This document shows, one piece after another, positions 1,376 to 16,448 of a stretch of 37,766 bases of DNA; position 1 is the stretch's first letter, and each line of letters begins with the position of its first letter. The notes under the pieces are model-generated. The model saw only the letters and a program-made list of their open reading frames with translations. It did no database searches and had not been told where the DNA came from. The DNA lies in IMG/VR virus record IMGVR_UViG_3300040801_006085, positions 1-37,766 of that record. One strand, given 5' to 3'. The translations under genes were made by a program, and so were the position numbers. Origin of the DNA: a virus.

Positions 1376-1510
1376 ATGATGGAACTTATCGAGTTGCTCG
1401 CCGCCCTGGCGGTCATTTTCGCCGCGGCGGCCGTGATGCAATGGCTCAAGCCGGAGCTCGCCGCACCACCGAAGGACGAGTCCGAGCTTGAATGGTGGGA
1501 GATCCGCTAG
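1376..1510 (+). CDS. Small membrane protein, 44 aa, unknown function
   Basis: A short ORF starts at ATG-ATG, 32 bases after the integrase stop, and ends at TAG. The product begins MMELIELLAALAVIF, with one hydrophobic segment (about residues 4-24), followed by a short acidic tail rich in Glu, Pro and Trp ending EWWEIR. The ribosome site is weak and no family is recognised. It fills the gap between the integrase and the convergent methyltransferase, and the hydrophobic-then-acidic layout looks protein-like. Chance cannot be excluded at this length. Confidence 0.5.
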   Translation: MMELIELLAALAVIFAAAAVMQWLKPELAAPPKDESELEWWEIR

Positions 1511-1547
1511 CTGTTGAAAGCTTCGGCGCCGGCTTCGCCTTCTCTTC

Positions 1548-2768
1548 TCACGTGGCCACGATCTCGAGGCGATCCACCTCCGCGATCCGCTCGCCGATGA
1601 GCTGAGCGCAGTTGACCGCCCAACTGTTGCCGAGAGCCTTGTATCGGGGGCCATCGGCGGCGGGCTTTCCTCGGTAGGGGATAGCCGTCCAGCCGTCCGG
1701 GAAACCCATCAGGCGTTCGCACTCCCGAGGGGTCAGGCGACGGACTTGCCATGGGTCTTGAACGTAGCTGCGGCTGCTTCCGCCCGACCCGGCGCGCAAG
1801 TTGGCGGTTTGGTGCGGTCCTTCAAACTGAGAGCCGCCCTCGCGACCTCGCATGTCGTAGGCGACGCACGTCTCCAGCCCTTGATTGCGCCCGACGGGAT
1901 GCACAGCAGCGCCGGAAACGTCCGGATCTTGCGAGCCATGGAAGGCGATCAGCGCTTCGCTCTCGAAGTCCATGCGCCGCCCGCCCCCAGGATGCGCATT
2001 GAGGGCGGGGCTAGCGTCTATGGGACCGGAGGTGCGGTTTCCGCCGAATGCGATCAGATGCCCGGATTGCGCTTGGTTATCGTCCGCGCCGCTCGTTCCA
2101 ACGCCGTTTTCAGTAAAGGCGGCAACTGCCTGCCCCGCTTCGCGGCGCGGCGGAGGATGCCCGCACAGGCTTTCGGGCTCAAAGAGTACCGCTGCGGCAC
2201 GCTGCCAGCTTCCAAGATGTCCGACAACGAACACACGACGGCGTCGCTGCGGGACAGCGAGGGGGAAGCGGCGTGTTCGGACGTACTGAGCGTCAAGAAC
2301 TCGGTAGGCGAACCCATACCCGAGTTCGCCCAACCCCCCGAGGAAGGAGCCAAAGTCCCGTCCTTCGTTCGATGACAGGACGCCGGGGACGTTCTCCCAA
2401 ACCACCCAGCGGGGGCGAAGACGTTGAGCCAGTCGAATAAACTCAAGGGTGAGGTTGCCGCGCTGGCCCTCCATTCCGGCTCGCTGTCCTGCAACGCTGA
2501 AGTCTTGGCAGGGAGTTCCGCCGCAGAGAAGGTTAATTGCCTCATACTGCCCTTCACGAATGGTCTGGAAGCCCGCCACCTCGGCGTATTCCTCGAGGCT
2601 TTCGCCGCGCTCGCGCTCACGACCGTGGATCGGAACGTCAGGATAATGGTGCCGCAGAACCGCGCGCGGAAAGGCTTCAATATCCGAGAGAAAGGATGCG
2701 CGCCATCCGAGCGGATGCCATGCGACCGAAGCGGCCTCAATACCCGAGCAGACGGAGCCGAAGATCAC
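1548..2768 (-). CDS. DNA (cytosine-5-)-methyltransferase
   Basis: This is a 406-residue C5-cytosine methyltransferase using S-adenosylmethionine. The motifs appear in canonical order: motif I FGSVCSGIEAAS at the N-terminus, motif IV GGTPCQDFS with the catalytic Cys, motif VI VWENVPG, motif VIII VPQRRRRVF, a variable target-recognition region (roughly residues 195-340), motif IX RRLTPRECERLMGFP and motif X YKALGNSWAVN. The start is GTG at 2768, ten bases after the stop of a 42-residue upstream ORF. No restriction endonuclease partner is visible, so this is an orphan enzyme. It lies last in the minus-strand repressor operon and would be expressed in the lysogen. The target sequence cannot be read from the protein. 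Confidence 0.95.
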   Translation of the reverse strand: MIFGSVCSGIEAASVAWHPLGWRASFLSDIEAFPRAVLRHHYPDVPIHGRERERGESLEEYAEVAGFQTIREGQYEAINLLCGGTPCQDFSVAGQRAGMEGQRGNLTLEFIRLAQRLRPRWVVWENVPGVLSSNEGRDFGSFLGGLGELGYGFAYRVLDAQYVRTRRFPLAVPQRRRRVFVVGHLGSWQRAAAVLFEPESLCGHPPPRREAGQAVAAFTENGVGTSGADDNQAQSGHLIAFGGNRTSGPIDASPALNAHPGGGRRMDFESEALIAFHGSQDPDVSGAAVHPVGRNQGLETCVAYDMRGREGGSQFEGPHQTANLRAGSGGSSRSYVQDPWQVRRLTPRECERLMGFPDGWTAIPYRGKPAADGPRYKALGNSWAVNCAQLIGERIAEVDRLEIVAT

Positions 2769-2777
2769 GAGCGCAGC

Positions 2778-2906
2778 CTAGAAAGCGGCGGGATCGAAGG
2801 CGCCGATCGACCAGAGGGAAACGGCCATCATGGTCGTGATCGCGATCCAGTCGAGGAGGATCATGGCGACCCTTCGGGCGATGTTTCTCATGGCCGGGTT
2901 TCTCAT
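2778..2906 (-). CDS. Small membrane protein, 42 aa, in the lysogeny operon
   Basis: The minus-strand ORF starts at ATG 2906 with a good ribosome site (GAGG about seven bases upstream). The product begins MRNPAMRNIARRVAMILLD and then has one hydrophobic segment, giving a basic N-terminus and a probable single membrane span (about residues 13-34). It follows the 53-residue ORF by nine bases and ends nine bases before the methyltransferase start, so the three look co-transcribed and translationally linked. No family is recognised. The ribosome site and tight packing make it a credible gene. Confidence 0.6.
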   Translation of the reverse strand: MRNPAMRNIARRVAMILLDWIAITTMMAVSLWSIGAFDPAAF

Positions 2907-2915
2907 GATCAGTCC

Positions 2916-3077
2916 TCAGGCCGCGAGCAGACGCTCGAGCTCGTTTGTCTCGCGAAGTTCACGATCGACCCTCACCAGCACCAGCCAGTAAGGGGAACGC
3001 TTACCGCCGGTGCGCTTGCAGAGATCGAGAAGGCATTTCCGGTGCTCTTCCGTGATAACGCTCTGTCCTGCCGGCAT
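2916..3077 (-). CDS. Hypothetical protein, 53 aa, in the lysogeny operon
   Basis: The ORF starts at ATG 3077 after a strong ribosome site (GAGAGGG, four bases upstream) and runs to TGA at 2916. The product begins MPAGQSVITEEHRKCLLDLC, is mixed in composition and predominantly helical, with a KRTGGKRSPYW turn in the middle and an acidic, Leu-rich helix at the end. No family is recognised. It sits between the repressor and a 42-residue membrane protein, all reading left, which suggests expression from the repressor side of the switch. Confidence 0.6.
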   Translation of the reverse strand: MPAGQSVITEEHRKCLLDLCKRTGGKRSPYWLVLVRVDRELRETNELERLLAA

Positions 3078-3224
3078 CGATCCCTCTCCGCTTCATGTGA
3101 GGCGATCGACCCTCGGGCGGCCAACTCCGCTCGGCGAAGTCATGGGGGAGAGCCGAACGAAGTCCGCTTGGGGCCGCTCGGGGCCGATCGCGTGGCGGCG
3201 GCGCCCACATCATTCACCGCCACC

Positions 3225-3262
3225 GGGAGCCGGCATAACGGACAATCTGCAAGTTTTGCAAG
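3225..3262 (-). promoter_or_regulatory. Possible second operator/promoter upstream of the methyltransferase operon
   Basis: The 208-base gap between the repressor stop and the 53-residue ORF holds two copies of TGCAAG, at 3248-3253 and 3257-3262, nine bases apart. The complementary hexamer CTTGCA recurs in the main switch region (3945-3984). A TTGCAA on the minus strand could act as a -35 element with a weak TATGCC about 18 bases downstream. The rest of the gap shows no clear gene. The promoter assignment is tentative; the repeats themselves are directly visible. Confidence 0.35.
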
Positions 3263-3285
3263 TCTCATGACAAAAAATGCGAGCC

Positions 3286-3894
3286 TCAGGCCACATCGAC
3301 GTGCGGAGATATAAACCGCCGGCGGAATTGCTCGCGCACAACACCGATCACCCGAGAGGTCACGCCATCGAGCACAATGGGCTTGCGATGCGGGCCGGTG
3401 GCCGTGCCGCTGATGAGCCAGGCAGTCTCGTAAAACCTGAGCACCAAGGACGGCCGCCCAGCATCGCCCGGAACCTGCGCGATCACGAGCTCGCCGTTCC
3501 GCGGCACGGCGCCTCGCTCGCTCCGCACGATATCGCCCTTGCGAAAATCAACATGCGCCATCGCATCGCTAAGCACCTCGAAGTGCTCGAAGCCGTGCTC
3601 GGCATCCGCAGGAACGAAGGGAGGCAGCTTGATGATGGCTTGCAGTTCCTTCGCGGGAAGCGCCGTCTCCGCTGCGCTGGTTGGCCGATCCTCGGCCTCG
3701 TGAAATGCCGCCCGGATCTTGCGGAGCGTTGTCTCGCGCAGCGTATCGCTACGGCTTCCGTCTAGGAAGCCGTAAATAGTGGACGGCTGGATGCCGGCCT
3801 TCAACGCAAGGCCGTTCGCCGTGGCGTCGTGCCTATCCATGATTTCCTGCAGCTCGGCGAGCTGGCGATCGCGCTTCTCTGTCATGCGGGACAT
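3286..3894 (-). CDS. Phage repressor, HTH plus S24-type C-domain lacking the catalytic serine
   Basis: This is a CI/C2-type repressor of 202 residues from the ATG at 3894; the frame stays open to 3951. Residues 25-48 form a helix-turn-helix (NGLALKAGIQPSTIYGFLDG), and residues 98-200 resemble the LexA/S24 fold (FRKGDIV, then PRNGELVIAQV). The self-cleavage dyad seems absent: the position of the usual DSM serine reads SDAM (Ala111), and the Lys strand reads SLVLRFYE. The protein may therefore dimerise without RecA-triggered cleavage. It is transcribed divergently from a Cro-like gene across 3895-4028 and heads a leftward operon ending in the cytosine methyltransferase. The start is uncertain among ATG 3951, 3894 and 3885. 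The two later starts place the 16-base palindrome upstream of the gene. Confidence 0.9.
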   Translation of the reverse strand: MSRMTEKRDRQLAELQEIMDRHDATANGLALKAGIQPSTIYGFLDGSRSDTLRETTLRKIRAAFHEAEDRPTSAAETALPAKELQAIIKLPPFVPADAEHGFEHFEVLSDAMAHVDFRKGDIVRSERGAVPRNGELVIAQVPGDAGRPSLVLRFYETAWLISGTATGPHRKPIVLDGVTSRVIGVVREQFRRRFISPHVDVA

Positions 3895-4028
3895 ATTCAC
3901 CGCAAAAAGGTTCCTGCGCAATTGCGCAGCGCATACCCTCAAAACTTGCATTTAAGACTTGCCCTAGTTGCAGAAACGCTTGCAGTGTAGCGCTCTCATT
4001 CTCGTTACCCCACAGGCTGCGCCTTCTA
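3895..4028. promoter_or_regulatory. Genetic switch: divergent repressor/Cro-like operator region
   Basis: This gap separates the leftward repressor from the rightward Cro-like gene. It holds a perfect 16-base palindrome, CTGCGCAATTGCGCAG (3914-3929), and a cluster of related hexamers in the same orientation: CTTGCA at 3945 and 3979, CTTGCC at 3958 and GTTGCA at 3967, spaced 13, 9 and 12 bases. The repeats are likely operator half-sites, and the palindrome may be a second operator or part of the repressor leader. The region is markedly more AT-rich than its surroundings. No convincing -35/-10 pair could be fixed on either strand. Confidence 0.6.
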
Positions 4029-4397
4029 ATGGCTTGTTCGCGCGAAACAATCACAAAATTACCACAATTGCTTGTGCTCTGGCCGAGCATGGACGCATTC
4101 CGCGAGGACGCCGCCTTGGACGGCAAGGTGCCGAGCACAAATCTGGTTCATAACTGGAAAGCCCGAGGACTTCCTAAAAAGCGCCTGAAAACAATCGTTT
4201 CCGGCGCGTCGCGCCGCGGCATTTCCATCACCGAGGCTGAACTCGAGGCCATGAACCGCGCGATCCGCGAGCGCGAGGCTGTGCGAGCTGCCACCGGATC
4301 CGAACGCTGCCGGCGCAATCCGTTCGCGCGCCTCGCGCGAGGCGTCTGCAATTTTATCAATCCCAAAAAGCAAGCTTCAATGGAGGATAGCCGGTGA
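4029..4397 (+). CDS. Cro-like regulator (carph-isopro type HTH)
   Basis: This 122-residue protein is the first gene of the rightward early operon. The segment around residues 14-60 (LLVLWPSMDAFREDAAL, then VHNWKARGLPKK) matches the pattern of small alphaproteobacterial phage Cro/carph-isopro regulators: a LWPS start, a helix-turn-helix, a WKxRG-x-P recognition turn and a following helix. It would bind the operators between itself and the divergent repressor to control lysis versus lysogeny. The C-terminus is basic and of unknown role. The ribosome site at ATG 4029 is weak, so a slightly later start is possible. The stop overlaps the next start. Confidence 0.75.
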   Translation: MACSRETITKLPQLLVLWPSMDAFREDAALDGKVPSTNLVHNWKARGLPKKRLKTIVSGASRRGISITEAELEAMNRAIREREAVRAATGSERCRRNPFARLARGVCNFINPKKQASMEDSR

Positions 4398-4852
4398 TGA
4401 ACCTTAGCGACCCGGACGCGCGCGGCCGCGCGCGCAACAACCTGGACAACGTGGTGCAGCTTTTCGAGGAGCCGCCCGTCGTGGCCGTGGCGATGGAAGA
4501 GGCTCGCCCGCCGGCCGAGCCTGACTGGCGCGAGCGGCAGGACCGGCGCGACGTGCTCGTCGTGGAGTTCGGCGGCCTGGCGCACGCCTTCGCCCGCATC
4601 GATGAGGTCGAACGCTTCGCCGATGCACCGGTCGCGCTCCGGCTCGCCGGCGGGGGAAACATCGGCTTCGCGGATCTCGGCGTGACCGACGACATGGCGC
4701 TCCAAGCTATCCGCGCCTTTATCCGAGAAAGCCTTGCTCATCGCATCCGCAAGCTCGCGACCGCACTCGAGCGCGAGGGCCTCGGCACAATGACGATGCA
4801 GCGGATCTGCCAAGCCTTCGCGGTGCCGTATCCCGCGGAGGTGCTCGGCTGA
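4397..4852 (+). CDS. Hypothetical early phage protein, 151 aa
   Basis: ATG 4397 overlaps the preceding TGA, and a GTG at 4394 is an alternative start; GGAGG at 4382-4386 serves either. The N-terminal third is charged and Pro-rich, followed by a compact segment (VLVVEFGGLAHAFARIDE) and a C-terminal Arg/Leu-rich helix (FIRESLAHRIRKLATALE). No known family is recognised. Its position between the Cro-like gene and a chain of overlapping small genes indicates an early, possibly host-directed role. Confidence 0.75.
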   Translation: MNLSDPDARGRARNNLDNVVQLFEEPPVVAVAMEEARPPAEPDWRERQDRRDVLVVEFGGLAHAFARIDEVERFADAPVALRLAGGGNIGFADLGVTDDMALQAIRAFIRESLAHRIRKLATALEREGLGTMTMQRICQAFAVPYPAEVLG

Positions 4853-5064
4853 TGCTTACGCGGCTCGAGCTGGCGCAATGGGATCGCGCCGAGGGCGCGG
4901 ATCTCTTCGTGCGGCCAGTCGCGGTGCAGGCGGTGGAGGCCGTCTCCTCCAATACCAGTCGCGTGCTGATCTATGGCGGCGACTTCAAGGTGCGCGGCTC
5001 CGCCGAGGAGGTCCATCTCGCCCTCTTCGGGCCGGGAGCCGGCTCAATCCCTCCTCCTCGCTAG
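4852..5064 (+). CDS. Hypothetical protein, 70 aa, small beta-barrel-like
   Basis: The ATG overlaps the previous TGA by one base. The product has a short N-terminal segment followed by alternating strands (VRPVAVQAVEAV, RVLIYGGDFKVRGSAEEVHLAL). This resembles short SH3-like proteins in which a strand pair is followed by an E-E-V-x-x-L helix, the FlbD-like pattern. That is a resemblance only. It is followed by about 95 bases holding no convincing gene apart from a 15-codon ORF at 5110-5157. Confidence 0.7.
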   Translation: MLTRLELAQWDRAEGADLFVRPVAVQAVEAVSSNTSRVLIYGGDFKVRGSAEEVHLALFGPGAGSIPPPR

Positions 5065-5160
5065 TTCCGGCTCGGGAAGCGGGGAAGGCGAGCGGGGCCG
5101 GCGGAGGCGATGCCGGCCTCGCTCAATCAATCGACCAAGAGCAAACGAAAGGGCTGAAAA

Positions 5161-5424
5161 GTGAGCGAAGAAACCAAGAGCACAAGCTTGGAGAAAACGG
5201 TCGCGGTCGGAAGGCTGCGTGATTTCGTGGAACGCATCGAGCGCCTCGAGGAAGACAAGAAAGAGATCTCCGAAGACATCAAGGAGGTCTATGGCGAGGC
5301 GAAGGGCGAGGGCTTCGATACGAAGGCCATGCGCGCCCTTATCCGCCTGCGGAAGATGGATCGCGCCGATCGCCAAGAGCAGGAAGCCCTCCTCGATCTC
5401 TATCTCTCGGCGCTCGGCGAATGA
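5161..5424 (+). CDS. GapR-family nucleoid protein (DUF2312)
   Basis: This 87-residue protein matches the GapR/DUF2312 family, whose chromosomal members bind overtwisted DNA ahead of replication and transcription in alphaproteobacteria. Diagnostic segments are [19 protein letters not shown], then [17 protein letters not shown], a RLRKMD turn and a C-terminal DLYLSALGE helix. The length is close to the usual 80-90 residues. The start is GTG 5161 with GAAAGGG upstream. The next gene starts inside its stop (ATGA). A phage copy could aid phage DNA replication or interfere with the host GapR. The family call is strong; the role in infection is inferred. Confidence 0.92.
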
Positions 5425-5651
5425 GCGGCGGCGGCGATCGGAAGGCGGATCTCGGCCGCAAGCTGGCAAAGGTCTGCTTCGAGCATGGCGACGAAGTCGG
5501 CCTTAGCGCCGGCGACGTTGCCGAGGTGCTGACCGAGCTCGCGCTCGTATCGGGTTCATTCCTGCGCCGCTGCCCGCCCGAAGCGCGCGAGATCTTCATG
5601 CGCACGGTAACCGAGCAGGCCGAGGCGCCCGGCGGCGAAAGGCTGAATTGA
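5421..5651 (+). CDS. Hypothetical early phage protein, 76 aa
   Basis: This protein is translationally coupled to the GapR-like gene through ATGA. It is small and mostly helical, with an acidic central part ([20 protein letters not shown]) and a basic CPPEAREIF turn. No family is recognised. It belongs to a string of five overlapping small ORFs between GapR and the beta clamp. Confidence 0.7.
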
Positions 5652-5923
5652 TGGCGAGCGGCTTTCAGTTCCTCACTACCAGGGGCGCAGCGCAGACGCG
5701 TGCGGACGATCAGGTGAACACTGTCAGTGTGTCCGTGCAGCGGCCTCGGCCTACCGGACGGGCGCCCGTGATCTCGGTTCGGGCCGTTCACATGCGCACC
5801 GAGGATTGTGCGAGCCGGCACGTGACGGCCTGGCTCAATCCATCGCAGGCGCGGCATGTTGCCAAGCTCCTCGAGATCTCGGCTCGCGAGGTCGAGGCGA
5901 TGGATGAGGGTGGTTCCGAATGA
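5651..5923 (+). CDS. Hypothetical early phage protein, 90 aa
   Basis: ATG 5651 shares a base with the preceding TGA; a TTG at 5648 is an alternative. The product has a beta-rich first half (VNTVSVSVQRP, VISVRAVHMRTEDC) and a helical end containing WLNPSQARHVAKLLEISARE. The last part resembles the helix-forming tails of small DNA-metabolism proteins, but no family is recognised. It overlaps the next gene by ATGA. Confidence 0.7.
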   Translation: MASGFQFLTTRGAAQTRADDQVNTVSVSVQRPRPTGRAPVISVRAVHMRTEDCASRHVTAWLNPSQARHVAKLLEISAREVEAMDEGGSE

Positions 5924-6279
5924 CCGGCGAGCTCTTCGCGGTGGTGGTGCCGACCTTCGTTCGGCATCCCGCACGCGTGGTGCCGACCTATGGCCGGCTT
6001 CACCGCGACCGCCCGTGCTCGCTGGTCGTCGCAGAGGGCGGCGGAGAGACGGTGTGGCGCAAGGATCGCATCGCATACCAACTTTTCAGCACCGCCGAAG
6101 ACTGCCGCGAATGCATCGCGGCGCTCGAGGAGGTGTCGGGCATCTCGGCCGCGAGACGGAGCGGCGACAAGCACCAGATCTGGGCGGCGCAGGAACTCCT
6201 GTTCCTGCCCGTCTCATCCTATCGGTGGACGAACAAAAAGGGGCGCCCGGATACGGCGCCCCTTTCCTATTGGAAATGA
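5920..6279 (+). CDS. Hypothetical early phage protein, 119 aa, with a hairpin in its 3' end
   Basis: The start overlaps the previous stop (ATGA). The N-terminal half is beta-rich (ELFAVVVPTFVRHPARVVP) and the middle carries a DCRECIAALEEVSGI helix. No family is recognised. The last 40 bases contain a perfect 11-base-pair hairpin (6237-6265), so the C-terminal WTNKKGRPDTAPLSYWK is encoded by a terminator-like element. Either the gene has grown into the terminator or the hairpin tunes downstream expression. Confidence 0.65.
   Translation: MTGELFAVVVPTFVRHPARVVPTYGRLHRDRPCSLVVAEGGGETVWRKDRIAYQLFSTAEDCRECIAALEEVSGISAARRSGDKHQIWAAQELLFLPVSSYRWTNKKGRPDTAPLSYWK
6237..6265 (+). terminator. Strong hairpin, probable intrinsic terminator or attenuator
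   Basis: The perfect inverted repeat AAAGGGGCGCC / GGCGCCCCTTT (11 pairs) flanks a 7-base loop. A-rich and T-rich ends make it potentially bidirectional. It lies inside the last codons of the 119-residue ORF and 47 bases before the next gene (ATG 6312). It would reduce transcription into the dnaN part of the operon unless antiterminated. The downstream T-tract is short, so the terminator strength is uncertain. Confidence 0.6.
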
Positions 6280-6311
6280 CGCCTCGGCAGGGCGAGAAGG
6301 GAAGACGAACA

Positions 6312-6644
6312 ATGTTTGAAGAACTTATCGGGGACACGGTGCTGTTGCGCCGCGGGGGGCGGTTCTGGCCAGCGAAGCTCTACCATCGCCGCGGCCTTCT
6401 CTACGCGAAGGACGGGCGCTATTTCCTCCGGCTGCAAGCCGATGGCGGATGCTCTGACCAGAAAACATCCTTTCGCGAGCTGAGCTGCGAGCTCGAGGTC
6501 TTCGCCGCGAGGAGCACGCTCAATGCCCTCACGCTTGATGGCGAGAACGGCAAGCCGCTGCGGGCCGAGATGGCGCGCACAATCCTCTTCCAGCCGGCCG
6601 ATCCCATCAAGGCTCTCGAGGATCTTCGGGAGGGCGAGCAATGA
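6312..6644 (+). CDS. Hypothetical protein, 110 aa, upstream of the beta clamp
   Basis: The chosen start is ATG 6312, preceded by a purine-rich ribosome site (GAAGGGAAGA). The frame is open far upstream, but the longer N-terminus is Arg/Ser-rich and overlaps the preceding genes. The product begins MFEELIGDTVLLRRGGRFW and reads as a small beta-rich fold (LLYAKDGRYFLRLQADGG) followed by helices. No family is recognised. It overlaps the dnaN start by ATGA, which implies coupling and perhaps a role with the clamp. Confidence 0.75.
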   Translation: MFEELIGDTVLLRRGGRFWPAKLYHRRGLLYAKDGRYFLRLQADGGCSDQKTSFRELSCELEVFAARSTLNALTLDGENGKPLRAEMARTILFQPADPIKALEDLREGEQ

Positions 6645-7768
6645 GCGAGGAGCGTTGTCCGCACACTGCCGATGCCTTCGACATGACGGCCAAACCGCCG
6701 GCCGAGAGCCGGGCCACCTTCCCGGCGGCTGCACTTCGCCAGGCGCTCGACCGAGCGATGAAGGTTTGCGGCAAGTCGAAGGTGCCCATGCTCGAGCACG
6801 TGCTAATCGCGGCGCGCGGTGGCCGGCTTAGCGTAGCTGCGACCGATCTCGACCGGCAGCTCACCATGCATATCGAATGCGAAGGCGAGCTCGCGCCGAT
6901 GGCGGTGCGACCGGAGAAATTGCGCACGGTCCTCGGTGCCTGCAAGGCCGAGGCAGAGATCGCGCTCGAGGCAGGCCGGCTCGAGGTTCGGGCCGGCGCA
7001 GCCAAGGGCAAGCTCGCTACGCTTCCGGGTGAAGACTTCCCGCTCTTCCCGCCGATCGAAGGCGCCGAAGACGTGGAGGTGGAATGCGGTGCGCTGAAAG
7101 AGGTGCTCAATGGGGTGCGCACGGCCATCGGCCGCGATGAGACCCGCTACTACCTGACCGGCGCCTACTTCGATCCTGAAGAGGCGGTCGTGGTCGGTAC
7201 GGACGGGCACCAGCTTGCCGCTGTTCCGTTCGAGCCGGCCAAGAGCCTTACGGCCTCCATCGTTCCTCTGCCCGCGATCGCCGACCTTCTGCTCTTTCCC
7301 GATGGGCCGGTGCGGATCCTGGCGAGCGAGCGCGCTTGGCGCGTCTCGAGCGAAACCGAGAGCCTGACCTTCAAGCTCATAGACGGCACCTATCCGAGTT
7401 GGCGCAGGGTGATCCCGGCGGGCGACCGCAAGTTCGCCTTCATCGCGGAGCGCCCACTGCTCCTCGCGGCGACCGACCAGGCGATGAAGATGGCCGATCA
7501 GAAGCACCGCGCCGTGACCTTGGAGAGCCGCGAGGATGCCTTGGTCATTGCCGCGGAAACCCGCGAGGAAGGATCCGTCGACCAGGTCGAGATCGAGGTG
7601 GCCGCCGAGGGCGAATGCCCGGCGTTTCGCGTCAATGGCACCTATCTGACGAATTTCCTCAAATTCGGTCGTTCACAGAAGGTTCGCATCGAGCACGACG
7701 GTCCCAACTCCATCCTATGCGACATGGATGAGGGCCGCACGTACCTCGTTATGGCGTTGAAAGCGTAA
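6641..7768 (+). CDS. dnaN: DNA polymerase III beta subunit (sliding clamp)
   Basis: This 375-residue protein has the three-domain layout of bacterial beta clamps and would encircle DNA to tether a polymerase. Recognisable segments include LRQALDRAM, MLEHVLIAARGGRLSVAATDLD, GTDGHQLAAVPF, the TYPSWRRVIP strand and the C-terminal NGTYLTNFLKF...RTYLVMALKA. Bacterial clamps usually end in VMPMR. No DNA polymerase gene is visible in the window, so it probably works with the host polymerase or other clamp-binding enzymes. It lies in the early operon, upstream of the initiator-like gene. The family call is firm; why the phage carries its own clamp is not shown by the sequence. Confidence 0.95.
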   Translation: MSEERCPHTADAFDMTAKPPAESRATFPAAALRQALDRAMKVCGKSKVPMLEHVLIAARGGRLSVAATDLDRQLTMHIECEGELAPMAVRPEKLRTVLGACKAEAEIALEAGRLEVRAGAAKGKLATLPGEDFPLFPPIEGAEDVEVECGALKEVLNGVRTAIGRDETRYYLTGAYFDPEEAVVVGTDGHQLAAVPFEPAKSLTASIVPLPAIADLLLFPDGPVRILASERAWRVSSETESLTFKLIDGTYPSWRRVIPAGDRKFAFIAERPLLLAATDQAMKMADQKHRAVTLESREDALVIAAETREEGSVDQVEIEVAAEGECPAFRVNGTYLTNFLKFGRSQKVRIEHDGPNSILCDMDEGRTYLVMALKA

Positions 7769-7783
7769 GGCGGAGGGGTGTCG

Positions 7784-7963
7784 ATGATGAGCTCTCAAAC
7801 GCGCGCGCGGCGCGCCACGATCGGGGTGCGCCTGAATGGCTGTACCTTTCCGCGGGGCGAGGGCGGACGATCCGCCTGCGGCGCGCCACGCGAGGCCGGA
7901 TCGCCCTTTTGCGCCCGCCACCATCACCAAGTTCGGCAGGATCTTCACGGGGAGGCACGGTAA
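7784..7963 (+). CDS. GcrA-like mini-protein, 59 aa (C-terminal zinc-type motif only)
   Basis: This small ORF has an excellent ribosome site (GGAGGGG at 7772-7778) before ATG-ATG at 7784/7787; the GTG at 7778 overlaps that site. The product contains C20-TFP, then CGAPREAGSPFCARHHH (C32, C43, H46). This matches the conserved C-terminal pattern of GcrA (C-x-W-P ... F-C-G ... P-Y-C-x-x-H). GcrA is the alphaproteobacterial cell-cycle activator that binds sigma70 through that end. The DNA-binding N-terminus is missing, so the protein could compete for sigma70 or work with another DNA-binding partner. Its stop TAA overlaps the next ATG. The motif is clear; the function is inferred. Confidence 0.7.
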   Translation: MMSSQTRARRATIGVRLNGCTFPRGEGGRSACGAPREAGSPFCARHHHQVRQDLHGEAR

Positions 7964-9168
7964 TGTCCGCAGTTCAAATGATGGCAAGTTTTCAGCGGGC
8001 GCGGCTTCTGCCCGCTCGCGAGCATGCCCTGGCGATGGTGCTCGCCGATCATGCGCGCGAGATCGAAGTCAATGAGGCGTGGTGCGAGCTGTCGCTTCCG
8101 ACGCTGATCGATGAGGCCGACATGTCGAAGCCAACCGTTCTCAAGGGACTGGCCGCACTCGAGGCGCTCGGGATCATCCGCAAGACTGTCGGCGGCGGTG
8201 CCTCCGCGAACCAGTATGCGATCAACCTGCTCTGGCTCGAGGACGCCGCGCGGCGCCTCTACGACATCAAGAGGACCGCGAAACGCGAGCACGGCCGCCA
8301 TTGGCTCGGGCCTTATCGCGAGATCAAGGAGGCCGAGCGCGACCAGCTCCTGCGCGCCGGCGTGCCTCTCTCGCTCATTCCCGACGCCTGGCGGCGCAAT
8401 GGCATCACTCCGAGACCGGACGAATTGGCGACCTACTTCGGCAAGGGCAGGCCGACGAACAAGCCGGGCACGCGCTCCGTTTCTGCAAAGGATCGCGCGA
8501 AGGGCACCGAGAAAAAAGAGGCGACTTCGGCTGAGGGGGGTAAAGCGGCTTTACCGGTAGGGGGTAAAGCGGCTTTACCCCCTGAGGCTTCGTGTTTTCG
8601 GGGTCATTATGGTCAAAATTCGGAGATTTATGGTCAAAATTCGACCGATTATGGTCAACCCCAGGCTTTACCCCAAACCATAGAAACCAAAAAACCCTCT
8701 AAGGTTTCCTCTTCGAGTTCTGGGGGTGGCCGGGCTGATAGTTCGCGGCAGGGGACCGAGCACTCGGCCAGCGGTGAGGCCGAAGGGCAATCCGAGGACG
8801 GACAGGCTCTGAGCGGCTCCATCGCGATCGAGATTGCCGTGCTGTACTGGTGCGCGACCGGCATCTGGTCGCCGCCTAAGGGCTGCACCTCGGATCTCGG
8901 TCCACCGCCCGATGCGCAGGACGCTGCCGATCGCTTCGGCCTATCGGCATCGAAGCTGCGGTTTCGATACCAGTTCGAGATCCTTCCCGCCCTCGAGGAC
9001 CGGCGCGGCACCGCAGCCGGGCGCGTCGGGGCGATGCAGGCGAAGCTTCGCGAGCGTTTGGCCGGCGGCGATCAAGGCGCCCGAGAGCGGGTGCGCGTGG
9101 TCGAGCGATTGCTCGGCGCGCTGAAGGAGCGCGCCGTTCGGGAAACCCGCGAGGTGCGGCATGGGTAA
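7963..9168 (+). CDS. Replication initiator-like protein with winged HTH
   Basis: This 401-residue protein starts at ATG 7963, overlapping the previous TAA. Residues 1-100 look like a winged helix-turn-helix (LSLPTLIDEADMSKPTVLKG, then LEALGIIRKTVGGG), common at the N-terminus of phage initiators. Residues about 190-250 are low-complexity and repetitive (GGKAALP twice, YGQNS repeats) because the DNA there carries iterons. The C-terminal third is helical (AADRFGLSASKLRFRYQF). The arrangement recalls lambda O: an N-terminal DNA-binding domain, the origin inside the gene, and a C-terminal part to recruit the helicase loader. No helicase or loader gene follows. The initiator role is inferred from HTH plus iterons. 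Confidence 0.75.
   Translation: MSAVQMMASFQRARLLPAREHALAMVLADHAREIEVNEAWCELSLPTLIDEADMSKPTVLKGLAALEALGIIRKTVGGGASANQYAINLLWLEDAARRLYDIKRTAKREHGRHWLGPYREIKEAERDQLLRAGVPLSLIPDAWRRNGITPRPDELATYFGKGRPTNKPGTRSVSAKDRAKGTEKKEATSAEGGKAALPVGGKAALPPEASCFRGHYGQNSEIYGQNSTDYGQPQALPQTIETKKPSKVSSSSSGGGRADSSRQGTEHSASGEAEGQSEDGQALSGSIAIEIAVLYWCATGIWSPPKGCTSDLGPPPDAQDAADRFGLSASKLRFRYQFEILPALEDRRGTAAGRVGAMQAKLRERLAGGDQGARERVRVVERLLGALKERAVRETREVRHG
8539..8712. repeat. Iterons and AT-rich tract: probable replication origin
   Basis: Two copies of GGTAAAGCGGCTTTACC (8539-8555 and 8563-8579) repeat with a 24-base period, and a partial copy, GGCTTTACCCC, lies at 8664-8674. Each full unit is itself an inverted repeat. 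They are followed by TATGGTCAAAATTCG at 8608 and 8629 and a shortened TATGGTCAA at 8650, exactly 21 bases apart, which is two helical turns. An A-rich stretch follows (about 8675-8712), unusual in this GC-rich DNA. Iterons followed by an AT-rich block inside an initiator gene is the lambda-type origin layout. The repeats are directly visible; origin function is inferred. Confidence 0.7.
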
Positions 9169-9838
9169 GGCGATCGCGAAGGCCGGACAGACGCCGGAGA
9201 TGCGGGACGCTGCGGCGGTCCTGGCCGCTTATGAGCGCGGCGAGATCACGGACGAGGCGCTGCCGGCCGCGCTCCTCGAGGCCGAACTCCTCGAGGCACG
9301 CCGGCGCATTACGAGCCGGGAGTTGAGCTGCGGCGAGGAGCTGCAGCCGGCCACAGTTCGGGCGGCCGCGATTGTCTCGCACGAACTCGAGGCGGACGAG
9401 CAGAAGCTCCGCGGCATACAGCGGGGCCTGCGTTCCTGCCGCTCGCCGATCATCGCGCTCTGCCAGGCCGGCGAGATCGATGAGTGGGGCCTCAAGGCCG
9501 CGCTACGCTTCGGCGCTCTTGCCTCGCAGGTCTACGGCGCGCCGAGGGTGGCGGTGTCATCCCTAGCCGAGCGGATCCAGGGCGGCGAGCCGGCCGACCG
9601 GGACTGCGGTGTCGATGCGCAACGGCTGTACGACGCAGCGCTCAGCGCCCTTACGAAGCGCGAGGCGGCGGTGCTCGCGGCCGTGGTGCGGTTCGACATG
9701 ACCTTCACCGAGGCGGCGAGAGCGGCTCACCTCCGGGGCTCACAACCGGTGCTTAGCGCGCAAGCGAAGGTGCTGACGGTGCAAGCCTGCGAGACGCTTT
9801 CGGAGCTCTTTCGCACGCATCACAAAAAAGGCGCTTGA
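9161..9838 (+). CDS. Putative late regulator with C-terminal HTH
   Basis: This 225-residue protein starts inside the end of the initiator gene (8-base overlap). The N-terminal half is Ala/Glu/Leu-rich helix. The C-terminal 70 residues (SALTKREAAVLAAVVRFDMT, then FTEAARAAHLRGS and VLTVQACETLSELF) resemble sigma region 4 or LuxR-like helix-turn-helix proteins. It is the last early gene before a promoter-like inverted repeat (9832-9874) and the packaging and head genes. This is the usual place for a late activator or antiterminator. No exact family is recognised and the role is inferred. Confidence 0.65.
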   Translation: MGKAIAKAGQTPEMRDAAAVLAAYERGEITDEALPAALLEAELLEARRRITSRELSCGEELQPATVRAAAIVSHELEADEQKLRGIQRGLRSCRSPIIALCQAGEIDEWGLKAALRFGALASQVYGAPRVAVSSLAERIQGGEPADRDCGVDAQRLYDAALSALTKREAAVLAAVVRFDMTFTEAARAAHLRGSQPVLSAQAKVLTVQACETLSELFRTHHKKGA

Positions 9839-9874
9839 CCCGTATAATGAAGCACCTCACGAAACGGGTAAGCG
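9832..9874 (+). promoter_or_regulatory. Putative late promoter inside an inverted repeat
   Basis: The arms CGCTTGACCCGT (9832-9843) and ACGGGTAAGCG (9864-9874) pair with one bulge and enclose a perfect TATAAT (9843-9848). A TTGACC (9835-9840) sits only two bases upstream of the TATAAT, too close for a normal -35/-10 pair. The site is therefore more likely activator-dependent, with the inverted repeat as a regulator site. It begins at the stop of the putative late regulator and precedes the HNH, terminase and head genes. Alternatively it could be a weak terminator hairpin, but there is no T-tract. Confidence 0.45.
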
Positions 9875-9917
9875 GGAACACTTGCGCCAAGGGGCGGTTC
9901 TCGCTGGGCTCTCCCTC

Positions 9918-10748
9918 ATGACCCGGATGAACTCTCTCGGCTCGCGCGTTGCGAGCCTCGGACCACGCCTGGCGCCGACGCGGGCGGAGGCGCGGCGCCA
10001 GTACGACGGGCATCGTGAAGCGGCGCAGCCTTGGCGGCGCTGGTATCACACCGCCGATTGGAGGCGCCTGCGGGCCGAGGTGATCGAGGCTGCCGGCGGA
10101 AGGTGCGAGCGGACAGGGGTGGAGCTGACCGGGAAGCATCCGGCGCCGAACTCACCGGTCTGCGACCATATCGTTCCGCACGATGGCGATGCCCGGCTCT
10201 TCTGGGCGCGGAGCAATCTGCAATGTGTCTCGAAGCGCTGGCACGATCAGGTGAAGCAGGCGCGCGAGAAGGCGCACCGCAAGGCAGCCTTCATGCCCGA
10301 GTGGATGCCGAGGGCGCAAAGGCCGGTGACTTTGATCTTCGGGCCTCCGTTTGCCGGCAAGAGCACGCTTGCCCGCAATAGGGCGCGAGCGTTCGCGCCG
10401 ATCATCGAGCTCGACGCCTGCGCGGAGATCGTGAGCGGACACAAGGGCCGCGATTGGGATCGCGAGCGCTGGCTTAACGCGGCGCTCTTCCTGCGGAACA
10501 TGCAGCTCGCCGAGCTCGCCGAGAGGCCGAGCCAAGTTCGGGCATTCGTGACCATGACAGAACCTCGAGCGCAGCGGCGCGCGTGGTGGGAAGCCAAGCT
10601 CGGGGCCGACGAGGTGATCGTCATCGCTACGCCGCTCGAGGTTCTCGAGGAGCGCGCGAGCGGCGACCGGAAGCGCCTGGCGGCCGGGGCGGACTGGTGG
10701 CGCCTCTACAGGCATCGCGACGGCGAAACGGTGCTGGCGACGGCCTAG
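9918..10748 (+). CDS. HNH endonuclease fused to a P-loop kinase-like domain
   Basis: This 276-residue protein starts at ATG 9918; the ribosome site is weak and the frame is open to a TTG at 9882. Residues 40-115 form an HNH nuclease: RRWYHTADWRRLRAEV, C63, then CDHIVPHDGD (D83-H84), N100 in ARSNLQC and H109 in KRWHDQ. Residues 137-276 hold a P-loop domain with the Walker A motif GPPFAGKST (142-150) and IELDACAEIVSG as a likely second strand, resembling AAA_33/polynucleotide-kinase-type ATPases. HNH proteins next to terminase help cut cos DNA in HK97-like phages. The added kinase-like half suggests end processing or repair. The two domains are clear; the combined role is inferred. Confidence 0.85.
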   Translation: MTRMNSLGSRVASLGPRLAPTRAEARRQYDGHREAAQPWRRWYHTADWRRLRAEVIEAAGGRCERTGVELTGKHPAPNSPVCDHIVPHDGDARLFWARSNLQCVSKRWHDQVKQAREKAHRKAAFMPEWMPRAQRPVTLIFGPPFAGKSTLARNRARAFAPIIELDACAEIVSGHKGRDWDRERWLNAALFLRNMQLAELAERPSQVRAFVTMTEPRAQRRAWWEAKLGADEVIVIATPLEVLEERASGDRKRLAAGADWWRLYRHRDGETVLATA

Positions 10749-10836
10749 CCGGCGGCGAGCCGGGGGGGGTGGGTCCGATCTCTGGCGCGGTAACGCCCCA
10801 AACCGACACGCCCCCTCATTCGCGGATTTTTTTTCG
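10749..10836. other. Non-coding gap before terminase, candidate cos region
   Basis: These 88 bases lie between the HNH gene and the small terminase gene, the usual place for cos in HK97-type phages. They contain a run of eight G (10762-10769), a small inverted repeat GGCG...CGCC, C-rich blocks and a run of eight T just before the TerS start. No open frame or ribosome site is seen. Assignment as cos rests on position and the HNH neighbour; no cohesive end can be read directly. Confidence 0.4.
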
Positions 10837-11283
10837 ATGGCAGACGAGTTTGACCTCCTCGGCGAGGAGTACAGCGCGCCAAGCGTCGGCAAGGGCCGGC
10901 CTTCGCATCGCCCCACTAAGAAAATGCGCCAGAAAGTCAGTAACTTAGCGGCGCTTAACTGGCCGGTGAAGCGGATCGCGAATGCGGTCGGCCTCTCGGT
11001 GCCAACCCTTCGGGAGCATTATTTTTCCGAGCTGGCCGAAGAGCGCGAGAAGCTCCGCGACCGGATCGACGGAGATCTTCTCGAGCAGCTCTTCGCCAAG
11101 GCGAAGGGCGGCAACATCGCTGCGATCGATCGGCTGCGCCGGGAGCTCGACCGCGCCGAGATGCAGCGCTCGCAACAGCCGGCGAAGGAAGAGCCGAAGG
11201 GCAAGAAAGAGAAGGCGAAAGAGGACGCCCTCTTGCCGCCCGAGGGTGACGAATGGGAGTTCCTCAAACAGCGGCCGAACTAG
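10837..11283 (+). CDS. terS: Terminase small subunit
   Basis: This 148-residue protein has an N-terminal DNA-binding helix-turn-helix (KVSNLAALNWPVKRIANAVG, then LSVPTLREHYFSEL), a helical oligomerisation segment (about residues 65-110) and a Lys/Glu-rich tail. This matches small terminases that recognise phage DNA for packaging. A T-rich leader and no obvious Shine-Dalgarno precede ATG 10837, so initiation may be inefficient or leader-dependent. The large subunit gene starts inside its last 31 bases. Confidence 0.85.
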   Translation: MADEFDLLGEEYSAPSVGKGRPSHRPTKKMRQKVSNLAALNWPVKRIANAVGLSVPTLREHYFSELAEEREKLRDRIDGDLLEQLFAKAKGGNIAAIDRLRRELDRAEMQRSQQPAKEEPKGKKEKAKEDALLPPEGDEWEFLKQRPN

Positions 11284-12992
11284 GCTGGGATTTTTCCTGC
11301 GCCGACTGGTGGGATCGCCTTCGCCGCGGCGACAGCCTCATTCCAGACCTGCCGCTCGATGCCGAGCTCGCCGACTATGCCGTGAAGGTTTTCGATAACC
11401 TTCGCCTGCCTGACGTGCCGGGCAATCCGAAGCTCGCCGAGGCGGCTGGCGATTGGTCTCGCGATATTGTTCGCGCCCTCTTCGGTTCGATCGACCGGCG
11501 CAGCGGCATTCGGCGCGTTTCCGAGATCTTCGAGCTGGTGCCGAAGAAACAGTCGAAGACGACCACAAACGGCGCCGGGGTGATGCTCACGGCGCTCATC
11601 TTGAACGAACGGCCTAAGGCCGAGTTCCTCCTCATCGGGCCGACCCAGGCGATCGCCGAGAGGGCATTCGAGCAATGCGAGGGCATGATTGCCCTGGACC
11701 CGTATCTCGCCCGCAGGTTCAAGGCTCGGCCGAGCCGTAAGCTGATCGAGTGCCTCGCCACCGGCGCGAAGCTGCGGATCATTACGTTCGACGCGAACAT
11801 CGCCACCGGCTCGAAGCCGGTCGGCGTTCTCATCGATGAGCTTCACCTCATGGGGCCGATGGCGAAGGCCGGATCGGTGATCGGGCAGCTCCGCGGCGGC
11901 CAGATAGCGGCCGCTGAGAGCTTCCTGATCTTCATCACGACGCAGTCGGACAATGCGCCGACCGGCGTTTTCAAGGACGAGCTCGAGCGCGCCCGCAAGA
12001 TCCGCGACGGCCGCCTGACCGGGCGCGGCGCGCAGATGCTGCCGGTCCTCTACGAGTTCCCGCGGGAGATGCAGCTCGACAAAGAGGAACCCTGGCGCGA
12101 TCCGAAGCTCTGGCCGCTGGTCATGCCGAACCTCGGCCGCTCAGTGGCGCTCGACACGATGGTCGAGAAGTTCGAGGAGGCCGACGCGAAGGGCGAGCAT
12201 GAGCTGCGCCGATGGGCATCGCAGCACCTCAACCTGCAAATCGGCCTCGCTCTCTCGGGCGACCGCTGGCGCGGCGCAGATCTCTGGCCGGCTGCCGAGG
12301 TGCCGGATCTTCGCAGCCTTTCGCAGCTCCTCGAGCGGAGCGAGGTGGTGACGATCGGTGTCGATGGCGGCGGTCTCGATGACCTCTTCGGCCTCGCGGT
12401 GATCGGCCGAGAGATCGAAACGCGGCGCTGGCTCATGTGGGCGCACGCCTGGGCGCATCCCGAGGTTCTCGAGCGCCGGCAGGCCGAGGAGGCGCGCTTT
12501 CGCGAGTTCGCGAAACTTGGGCAACTGACAATCTGCGAAGATGCAACGCAGGATCTCCGAGAAGTCGCAGATCTCGCCTCGAGGGCGCGCGATGCAGCGC
12601 TACTGCCCGAGAAGCGCGCGATTGGCCTCGACCCGCACGGCGTTGCCGAGCTCCTCGATGAGCTCCTACTCGCTGGTTTTGATCGGGAGCAAATCACGGC
12701 TGTTCCGCAGGGCTTCCGACTGCAATCGGCAATCGTGGGCCTCGAGCGGAAGCTCAAGGACAAGACGGCGGTGCACGGCGGCCTCGAGCTCATGAGCTGG
12801 TGCATCGGCAACGCGAAGGTCGAGCCGCGAGGCAACGCGCAGATGATAAGCAAGGCGATCGCCGGGCGCGGAAAGATCGACCCGCTGATCGCCACACTGA
12901 ACGCAGCAAAGCTCATGGAGCTTGCGCCCGAGGCTGCCGGCGCCATGCCGCCTTCGCCCTGGGAAGATGAGGAGTTCGTTTTCGTCTCATGA
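11253..12992 (+). CDS. terL: Terminase large subunit
   Basis: This 579-residue packaging motor and nuclease has an N-terminal ATPase with a deviant Walker A, VPKKQSKTTT (residues 96-104), and a Walker B GVLIDELH (D196, E197). The C-terminal RNase H-like nuclease has acidic residues in TIGVDGGGLDDLFG (D371) and AIGLDPHG (D460). The length and motif order match the HK97-like Terminase_1 group. It overlaps terS by 31 bases and the portal by ATGA, implying a single coupled transcript. Confidence 0.95.
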   Translation: MGVPQTAAELGWDFSCADWWDRLRRGDSLIPDLPLDAELADYAVKVFDNLRLPDVPGNPKLAEAAGDWSRDIVRALFGSIDRRSGIRRVSEIFELVPKKQSKTTTNGAGVMLTALILNERPKAEFLLIGPTQAIAERAFEQCEGMIALDPYLARRFKARPSRKLIECLATGAKLRIITFDANIATGSKPVGVLIDELHLMGPMAKAGSVIGQLRGGQIAAAESFLIFITTQSDNAPTGVFKDELERARKIRDGRLTGRGAQMLPVLYEFPREMQLDKEEPWRDPKLWPLVMPNLGRSVALDTMVEKFEEADAKGEHELRRWASQHLNLQIGLALSGDRWRGADLWPAAEVPDLRSLSQLLERSEVVTIGVDGGGLDDLFGLAVIGREIETRRWLMWAHAWAHPEVLERRQAEEARFREFAKLGQLTICEDATQDLREVADLASRARDAALLPEKRAIGLDPHGVAELLDELLLAGFDREQITAVPQGFRLQSAIVGLERKLKDKTAVHGGLELMSWCIGNAKVEPRGNAQMISKAIAGRGKIDPLIATLNAAKLMELAPEAAGAMPPSPWEDEEFVFVS

Positions 12993-14260
12993 CTGACAAT
13001 ATCGAGAACCCTGCGGTTCCGCTCTCGAGCGAGAACATCCTTTCTTTTTTCGGGATCGGCTCGGGCGGCATCGGCGAGCTTGACATCAACGTGACCGAGC
13101 GCGCCGCCCTCGGCGTGCCGGCAGTGTGGGCGGCCGTTGTCTTTCTCTCGCGCACTATCGCGAAGCTGCCGCTGAAAGCCTATCGCCGCGACAAGAGCGG
13201 AAACCGGCAGCGGATCCGCGGCGGCGTGGCTGCCGTTGTCGGGAAGCACGTGAACCCGACGTTGACCTCTTTCGAGTGGCGGCGCGGAATGCTCGAGCGA
13301 GTGCTTCTGCCTGGCCGGCACCTCACCTATATCGAGCGGGCGCCGAACGGCCGGATCCTCAATCTCTGGCCGCTCGACACCGGCCGGGTGACAGTGCGCG
13401 AGGTGGTAAAAAGCGGCGTCCCAACCCGCAGCTACGACTATCACGGCACGCACGGAACGATCGCCTACGAGGCTCACGAGATCATCGATATCTCTTTCAT
13501 GGGGCACGGCGACGGGCTGCGATGCTACGGGCCGCTTCGCACCCATCGCGATACCTTCGCGCGCGCAATCGCGGTTCGGCACTACAGCTCGAAGATCTTC
13601 CGCGGCGGCGGCGTGCCGCCTTTTCAGATCCGGGCCAAGCACCAGACGCCGGCCGGGATGGAGCGGGCTTCCGAGCAGATGAGCCAGGCGGTCGCGCGAG
13701 CCTCGAAGGAAGGCCGGCAGGCGATCGCGGTTCCCGAGCACGTGGAACTCGAGGCGCTCGGCTTCGAGCCGCAGAAAATGCAAATGACGGACGCGGAGCG
13801 CTTCTGTCTCGAGGAGATCGCGAGGGTCTACAACCTGCCGCCGGTCTTCCTGCAGGATCTCTCGCGCGCCACCTTCTCCAACGCCGAGCAGCAAGACCTT
13901 CACCTCGTGAAGCACGTCATCACGAACTGGTGCGCGCAGATCGAGGAAGAGATCAATCTCAAGCTCTTCGGGCGCGGCAAGACCGATCGTTACTTCGAGT
14001 TCGACGTGGACGGACTGCTCCGCGGCGATTTCGGCAAGCGCATGGAGGGCTGGCAAAAGGCGATCAGCTCCGGCGTGGCAACGCCGAACGAAGCGCGCGC
14101 GGCAGAGAACAGGCCGGCGATCCCTGGCGGCGATGGCGGCTTTATCAACGGCGGATCCTTCCCGCTCGAGATGGTGGCGAACAGGCCGCCACCGGATCTC
14201 GGCGACCAGGGGGTGAGCGATAACGAAAGCGGCACGGAAGGCGCAGGCGATGAAGAATGA
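12989..14260 (+). CDS. Portal protein, HK97 family
   Basis: This 423-residue protein forms the dodecameric DNA entry ring of the head. Recognisable stretches are AALGVPAVWAAVVFLSRTIA near the N-terminus, GRHLTYIER, HEIIDISFMG, LSRATFSNAEQQDLHLVKHV and the conserved FDVDGLLRGDF region. These are standard HK97-type portal landmarks. It is coupled to terL by ATGA and its end overlaps the protease gene by 11 bases. Confidence 0.95.
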   Translation: MTDNIENPAVPLSSENILSFFGIGSGGIGELDINVTERAALGVPAVWAAVVFLSRTIAKLPLKAYRRDKSGNRQRIRGGVAAVVGKHVNPTLTSFEWRRGMLERVLLPGRHLTYIERAPNGRILNLWPLDTGRVTVREVVKSGVPTRSYDYHGTHGTIAYEAHEIIDISFMGHGDGLRCYGPLRTHRDTFARAIAVRHYSSKIFRGGGVPPFQIRAKHQTPAGMERASEQMSQAVARASKEGRQAIAVPEHVELEALGFEPQKMQMTDAERFCLEEIARVYNLPPVFLQDLSRATFSNAEQQDLHLVKHVITNWCAQIEEEINLKLFGRGKTDRYFEFDVDGLLRGDFGKRMEGWQKAISSGVATPNEARAAENRPAIPGGDGGFINGGSFPLEMVANRPPPDLGDQGVSDNESGTEGAGDEE

Positions 14261-14834
14261 ACGGCGGGGGCTCAAGGGCCATCAATTCGAGCTCCGGGCG
14301 GCCGATGACGGAACGATCACGGTCGAGGGTTACGCGGCCGTTTTCGGTGAGGCGACCAGCATCGGCGGATACTTCGACGAGGTGATCGCGCCTGGCGCGT
14401 TCGCCGATACCCTGCGCGCCGGCCGCAATATCTGCTTCCTGGTGGAGCACCGCGATCTTGCCCTCGCATCGACGGAGACCGGCACGCTCGAGCTTACCGA
14501 GGATGAGCGCGGCCTCAAGGTGCGCGCCTCGCTCGATGGCAACGACCCGGACGTGCAGCGGATCCGCTCGAAGCTCGAGCGCAAAACACTCCGCAGCATG
14601 AGCTTCGCCTTCCATGCCAAGCGCGAGGAATGGGACGACACCGGCGAGACGCCGAAGCGAACCCTGCTCGAGGTGGAAGTCGGCGAGGTCTCGGCTGTGC
14701 AGTTTCCTGCCTACGAGGGCACCGAGATCGCCCTTCGCTCGCTTCGCAGCGCGGACGCGAGCCTGCATAACAGTATCGGCGCACAAGCCCGTGTGCGGAT
14801 GAAACGAAACCTTCTCGCCCGCAAGGGGCGATAA
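14250..14834 (+). CDS. Prohead protease, HK97 gp4 family
   Basis: This 194-residue serine protease matures the procapsid. The family signature is present: VEGYAAVFGEATSIGGYFDE, EVIAPGAF, the catalytic His in VEHRD (H67) and the Ser in RSMSFAF (S118), followed by EVEVGEVSAVQFPAYEGT. It lies between the portal and the capsid, as usual. The start ATG 14250 lies inside the portal gene. Confidence 0.95.
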   Translation: MKNERRGLKGHQFELRAADDGTITVEGYAAVFGEATSIGGYFDEVIAPGAFADTLRAGRNICFLVEHRDLALASTETGTLELTEDERGLKVRASLDGNDPDVQRIRSKLERKTLRSMSFAFHAKREEWDDTGETPKRTLLEVEVGEVSAVQFPAYEGTEIALRSLRSADASLHNSIGAQARVRMKRNLLARKGR

Positions 14835-14881
14835 GAGGGGGCGCCCGCCCCACCACACCTGCCAACGAAAGGAAAGCGGAC

Positions 14882-16141: not shown

Positions 16142-16165
16142 GGCTTCGAGCCGTTCAACCAAACG

Positions 16166-16197
16166 AAGGGCGGCGGATCCTCGCCGCCCTTTTTTTA
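16166..16197 (+). terminator. Intrinsic terminator after the capsid gene
   Basis: The stem GGGCGGCG / CGCCGCCC (8 pairs, extended by AA/TT) has a 6-base loop and is followed by a run of seven T. It sits between the capsid stop and the next ribosome site. Partial termination would give more capsid mRNA than connector and tail mRNA. Confidence 0.85.
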
Positions 16198-16208
16198 GGG
16201 GTAATGCA

Positions 16209-16448
16209 ATGGAACAAGTTCAAGTCAGGCTGCGCTGCGGGCGCGCCACCGATCAGGGCACGCAGGAACCCGGAGAAGTTATCACAGTCGGCTCGGCCGA
16301 GGCCGAGGCGCTGATTGCAAACGGATCCGCGGAGCCTCTCGAGGAAGCCGACAATGCCGGCGCCGCGGGCGGCGGGGCAGGAGAGGGCTCGGGCGGCCTC
16401 GGCCTGGGGGATGGCGGCCGCAAAAGCGGCAAAGTCGATGGCAAATAG
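16209..16448 (+). CDS. Small neck-region protein, 79 aa
   Basis: ATG 16209 follows a G-rich ribosome site (TAGGGGTAATGC). The N-terminal half is a compact beta-rich domain (VQVRLRCGRATDQGTQEPGE, then VITVGSAEAEALIANGSAEP) that resembles small phage head proteins with an A-E-A-L-I-x-x-G-x-A pattern. The C-terminus is a Gly-rich flexible tail. The next gene starts inside its last codons. The role in head completion is inferred from position. Confidence 0.75.
   Translation: MEQVQVRLRCGRATDQGTQEPGEVITVGSAEAEALIANGSAEPLEEADNAGAAGGGAGEGSGGLGLGDGGRKSGKVDGK

Follow-up and report, generated by a model that had tools for sequence, protein, structure and literature searches.

A stand-alone protein resembling the sigma-contacting domain of GcrA in a phage early region

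Introduction

What could a phage gain from the sigma-contacting end of GcrA alone, separated from the half of the protein that reads DNA? This question is raised by a very short open reading frame in the virus record IMGVR_UViG_3300040801_006085, of which the whole stretch of 37,766 bases was analysed here (hereafter, the window). GcrA couples DNA methylation to sigma70 promoter choice in Alphaproteobacteria. In the available text of PMC7403470, the sigma-contacting domain of GcrA (SID) binds sigma domain 2 and its DNA-binding domain (DBD) reads methylated promoters; the title of PDB entry 5yix likewise names the GcrA SID with sigma domain 2. A SID alone may therefore bind sigma but would not find GcrA promoters. 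Phage genes for GcrA are described in the accessible portions of PMC3556154 (phiCbK gp222 and relatives) and PMC9437464, and two adjacent GcrA-like ORFs of a brucellaphage are named without detail in that of PMC11836647. We found no paper on stand-alone SIDs among openly licensed papers.

P0001 resembles the sigma-contacting domain of GcrA

The open reading frame, which we refer to as P0001, translates to MMSSQTRARRATIGVRLNGCTFPRGEGGRSACGAPREAGSPFCARHHHQVRQDLHGEAR followed by a stop codon, and both the 59-residue frame and the strong ribosome-binding site that an earlier note had read from the letters are present (Table 1). The Cys/Pro/Gly/His pattern of the GcrA C-terminus, which the note had also recognized, extends from C20 to H46 as C-x-x-P ... 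C-G-x-P ... G-x-P-F-C-x-x-H (C20, P23, C32-G33, P35, G39, P41-F42-C43 and H46). P0001 has the Cys/Cys/Cys/His scaffold of the SID with an aromatic residue after the first Cys (C20, F22, C32, C43, H46), and the SID positions that it keeps are C20, F22, P23, G25, C32, G33, G39, P41, F42, C43 and H46. We rejected this motif as the only evidence, because part of it is common to HNH-type proteins. A trap for motif-only searches is formed by the HNH-type proteins at L002, L003 and L010-L014, which contain a SID-like CG..P..GGPYC..H.

Table 1. Features of the P0001 locus and its surroundings, in positions of the window
Feature	Position	Strand	Basis or remark
GapR-like DNA-binding protein	5161..5424	+	Pfam PF10073, 117.8 bits; early region shared with the SID and beta clamp
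Phage DNA polymerase III beta clamp, upstream neighbour	6641..7768	+	Pfam and PHROGs; context, outside the proposed mechanism
GGAGG ribosome-binding site	7772..7776	+	7 nt upstream of ATG 7784; sequence
Alternative P0001 start, GTG	7778	+	1 nt from GGAGG
Stand-alone SID-like protein P0001, 59 aa	7784..7963	+	SID profile 32.9 bits, E 2.5e-8
SID-profile-matching stretch of P0001, residues 18-49	7835..7930	+	putative CCCH ligands C20, C32, C43, H46
P0004, winged-helix, replication-initiator-like, downstream neighbour	7963..9168	+	PHROGs replication initiation E 2.6e-7; Pfam HTH_IclR E 0.0099

The Pfam GcrA family (PF07750) matched P0001 at 16.0 bits (E 0.016), below its gathering cut-off of 26.9 bits, and the match was confined to the C-terminal positions 106-149 of the 155 in the profile. 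WRC (PF08879) also stayed below its cut-off (14.1 bits, E 0.038; cut-off 28.6 bits). No other Pfam family matched up to E=10, an HNH domain included, and neither PHROGs nor NCBIfam gave a match up to the same limit, which bears out the note's remark that the protein is too short for most pipelines to name. Because the Pfam score lay below the cut-off, we built SID profiles without the window. The larger contains 123 sequences, namely SIDs from frames that also encode a GcrA DBD plus eight canonical seeds, and it matched P0001 at 32.9 bits (E 2.5e-8 for 10,000 sequences), compared with 9.0 bits for the second-best frame of the window; a profile of the 8 canonical SIDs alone gave 29.6 bits.

Shuffled versions of P0001 reached its SID score in 0 of 20,000 trials, both when all residues were shuffled and when Cys and His were held fixed; the highest-scoring shuffle had 22.1 bits, where P0001 itself had 33.2 bits in the same test. 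Since the shuffles with fixed Cys and His never reach the score, the similarity exceeds the putative metal ligands. Alignment of P0001 with the SID by hhalign gave a probability of 94.5%. Searched alone against 385 alphaproteobacterial genomes, P0001 matched best, and weakly, to the C-termini of full GcrA proteins (E 5.8e-4 per genome); it had no close relatives among viral contigs, and matches among phage records were at chance level. The G+C content of its three codon positions is 0.72/0.63/0.72, with the second position above that of the six other genes measured. We consider the homology of P0001 to the GcrA SID solid as judged from these sequence comparisons. A profile of the GcrA DBD, searched at a limit of E=10, matched no frame anywhere in the window, in agreement with the claim that the DNA-binding domain is missing.

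P0001 shares its Cys/His scaffold with Caulobacter crescentus GcrA (PF07750; SID 108-173; PDB 5yix, 7ye1 and 7ye2), and an aromatic-Pro after the first Cys and G-x-P-[FY]-C-x-x-H are also common to both. C. crescentus GcrA, however, has 173 aa with a DBD (residues 1-45) and a linker, whereas P0001 has neither in its 59 aa. phiCbK gp222 and relatives are, like P0001, products of a GcrA-family gene on a phage, but these proteins of about 180 aa comprise both GcrA domains, and P0001 comprises the SID only. We do not class P0001 as a GcrA; within the GcrA family we place it as a variant with a stand-alone SID.

Departures from the SID consensus

Most SIDs keep an F-x-F aromatic pair before the second Cys and an A-Y after the His. 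P0001 lacks both (it has R at residue 29 and A at residue 31; V50 and R51 follow the His), and its spacing before the second Cys is shorter than in SIDs. The second aromatic is found in 7 of 14 stand-alone SIDs and in 100 of 115 SIDs with a DBD (Fisher p 0.0026, with relatedness ignored).

The single-chain AlphaFold model of P0001 had a pLDDT of 73.7 and a pTM of 0.50, and this single low-confidence model matched no PDB chain in Foldseek up to E=10. A canonical viral SID taken through the same procedure as a control gave a pLDDT of 91 and matched 5yix_B (1.3e-4), 7ye2_G and 7ye1_G. The order of elements is alike in the two models, to both of which related alignments were fed. If anything, this comparison leans against a SID fold for P0001.

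Genomic context and GANTC depletion

The window contains genes for a phage integrase, portal, capsid, terminase and tape-measure protein, and a large tail gene has GTA-type domains. P0001 sits immediately 3′ of the beta clamp gene among early replication genes, and the ATG of P0004 overlaps its stop codon by one base (TAATG); from gene kind and place, the genes of this region are probably expressed early. All three clamp domains were matched in the beta sliding clamp, which had no close relatives among viral contigs. The terminase (TerL) had relatives in three contigs, all short, and in one MAG of the Rhodobacterales, the latter being the nearest in a cell genome at 51% identity, and none of these four loci is in our list of SIDs without a DBD. 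The best reading of the window virus is a temperate phage of an alphaproteobacterium.

GANTC is methylated by CcrM. The window contains 14 GANTC sites against 211 expected, a ratio of 0.066 that is the lowest of 251 gapped words, and one span that includes the early region (1483 to 16478) is free of them; GTNAC and CANTG are close to expectation. Other SID-bearing viral loci among the matches listed have a median GANTC ratio of about 0.30, and the ratio of the window is equalled or undercut in 12 of 111. As a mark of stand-alone SIDs, depletion was rejected, the medians for these and for other SIDs being 0.30 and 0.30 (p 0.78). The available text of PMC9516812 reports GANTC depletion for some pelagiphages. 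The depletion supports a CcrM-type host for the window virus and proves nothing about P0001.

Stand-alone SIDs in other genomes

Pattern scans of IMG/VR, in which the second Gly stood at its usual spacing or one codon earlier and SID frames were kept at 27 bits or more, returned at least 126 SID frames including that of the window; that CG, G-x-P-Y-C and H never vary within this viral set is partly built in by the search pattern. Among the matches listed, 120 frames were non-redundant and 107 had an intact 5′ end, 13 cut by a contig end being left out of the count. Within these 107, again among the matches listed, a GcrA DBD was present in 88, only a weak DBD match in 3, and none in frame in 16. 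We set aside three of the 16 in which we saw another HTH-like N-terminus by eye (L132, L101 and L169) and one apparent frameshift with the DBD in another frame (L112), which leaves stand-alone SIDs at 12 of the 107 non-redundant viral frames among the matches listed, P0001 counted. L181, a duplicate of L140, and L046 together with the phage records, which lie outside the viral scan, were not counted. P0001 thus joins a recurrent class of stand-alone SIDs, and this membership, together with the SID homology and the absent DBD, upholds the earlier description of a GcrA-like protein with only the sigma-contacting end.

The stand-alone SIDs at L015, L110, L140, L161 and L162 and those of phages phiKM1 and Mwe-JY25 are, like P0001, short ORFs with a SID and without an in-frame GcrA DBD, but most of the others retain more of the SID consensus, and their neighbours differ. 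Komagataeibacter phage phiKM1 encodes a 68-aa SID ORF in an unannotated gap (L052, 3959-4165), and in Microcystis phages Mwe-JY25 and Mwe-JY07 a 75-aa ‘hypothetical protein’ immediately after replication protein O is a SID. At L015 (1678-2336) we observed a split GcrA, in which an ORF with two HTH domains overlaps a 61-aa SID ORF by ATGA and the second HTH matches the GcrA DBD (Pfam E 0.004; our own profile 1.5e-4). In an alphaproteobacterial cell genome (L027), an HTH_36 domain and a SID are fused in one protein. Across 142 alphaproteobacterial genomes, 3 of 95 SID matches fell in frames of less than 100 aa (L200, L201 and L202); judged from translations, two of these lie amid ordinary chromosomal genes, one of the two adjoining a groEL-like gene. 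GcrA or SID genes also occur in records labelled as Synechococcus, Microcystis and Pseudanabaena phages (L054, L058, L059 and L199), which suggests that the true hosts of these phages are alphaproteobacterial companions.

Discussion

We tentatively propose that P0001 acts as a small ligand of sigma70 region 2, in competition with the GcrA of the host, a reading drawn from sequence that we regard as possible. The phage would make P0001 early, as a free-standing GcrA-family SID, which would fold around a small Cys3-His centre and bind host sigma70 domain 2 on the surface that GcrA uses. With no DNA anchor, P0001 would compete with host GcrA, and the GcrA/CcrM cell-cycle programme would be weakened and sigma70-RNA polymerase freed for a phage whose own genome offers nearly no GANTC sites for GcrA action. 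Competition would be the simplest consequence of a SID alone, if sigma binding is retained, and P0001 might block or redirect host cell-cycle gene control.

The loss of both F-x-F and A-Y and a model with no PDB match are what one would expect if P0001 were a SID descendant that kept the Cys/His scaffold and lost sigma binding, either making another contact, with protein or nucleic acid, or decaying. The open frame with its good ribosome site, the compact operon position, the codon-position G+C and a retention of the scaffold far beyond chance speak against this reading, which we consider unlikely while giving it some weight. It is very improbable that P0001 has nothing to do with GcrA and that the pattern arose by chance or is a small zinc-binding motif of a general kind, such as zinc-ribbon HNH nucleases have: HNH-type proteins (L002, L003 and others) with CxxCG..P..GGPYC..H do match the same DNA pattern, but with the SID profile these decoys reach 16.8-20.8 bits, well under P0001, the one decoy compared with Pfam falls in HNH and zinc-ribbon families and not in GcrA, and shuffles with fixed Cys and His never attain the score of P0001. 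A further thought is that P0001, bound to sigma70 domain 2, stimulates the formation of open complexes generally, without promoter specificity, in the manner of Crl or RbpA, sigma domain 2 ligands of other families that we set beside P0001 by role only. The available text of PMC7403470 has both Crl and GcrA working via sigma domain 2 and lists Crl without DNA contact, and some chromosomes have stand-alone SIDs too, away from any obvious prophage; we nevertheless think such a general activator quite unlikely.

P0001 could instead act as one half of a split GcrA or as an adaptor, tethering sigma70-RNA polymerase to P0004 as its DNA-binding partner at a promoter or an origin of the phage. The literal split GcrA at L015 and the HTH_36-SID fusion at L027 make the idea of a partner attractive, and several stand-alone SIDs adjoin HTH, CII-like or RepO-like genes. 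Gene overlap was rejected as a sign of partnership, since gcrA genes with a DBD ordinarily overlap their neighbours (upstream 52/65, downstream 62/81). DNA-binding families were also found beside DBD-bearing genes, with no clear contrast in a purely descriptive comparison, which set 23 neighbour proteins of stand-alone SIDs against 59 proteins from 40 loci drawn at random from 96 with a DBD. This comparison is not blind, because in the stand-alone set the downstream neighbour of L126 and both the upstream and downstream neighbours of phiKM1 were replaced by hand, by eye or annotation, and the upstream neighbour of L126 was omitted. P0004 had no relatives in the 385 genomes, the phages or the viral contigs that could show a conserved linkage between P0001 and P0004, and we judge the tethering role rather unlikely.

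P0001 may also be a case of a wider pattern, a speculative idea that we hold to be doubtful. The sigma-gripping domain of GcrA would be a mobile module that acts, in alphaproteobacterial phages and some chromosomes, either as a sigma70 ligand in its own right or as a tether on GcrA-type, HTH_36 or replication-initiator-like proteins; phages with genomes purged of GANTC would thereby attract sigma70 or withhold it and dispense with the half of GcrA that reads methylation, and P0001 would pair with P0004.

A SID that occurs in nature apart from the half of GcrA that reads DNA would offer a ready reagent to part ‘binding sigma’ from ‘finding the promoter’. The phage factors acting on host sigma that are given in the available text of PMC7403470 target domain 4, and P0001, as a domain-2 ligand, would extend such factors. 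If the chromosomal stand-alone SIDs are real, they would represent an unnoticed layer of sigma70 control in these bacteria.
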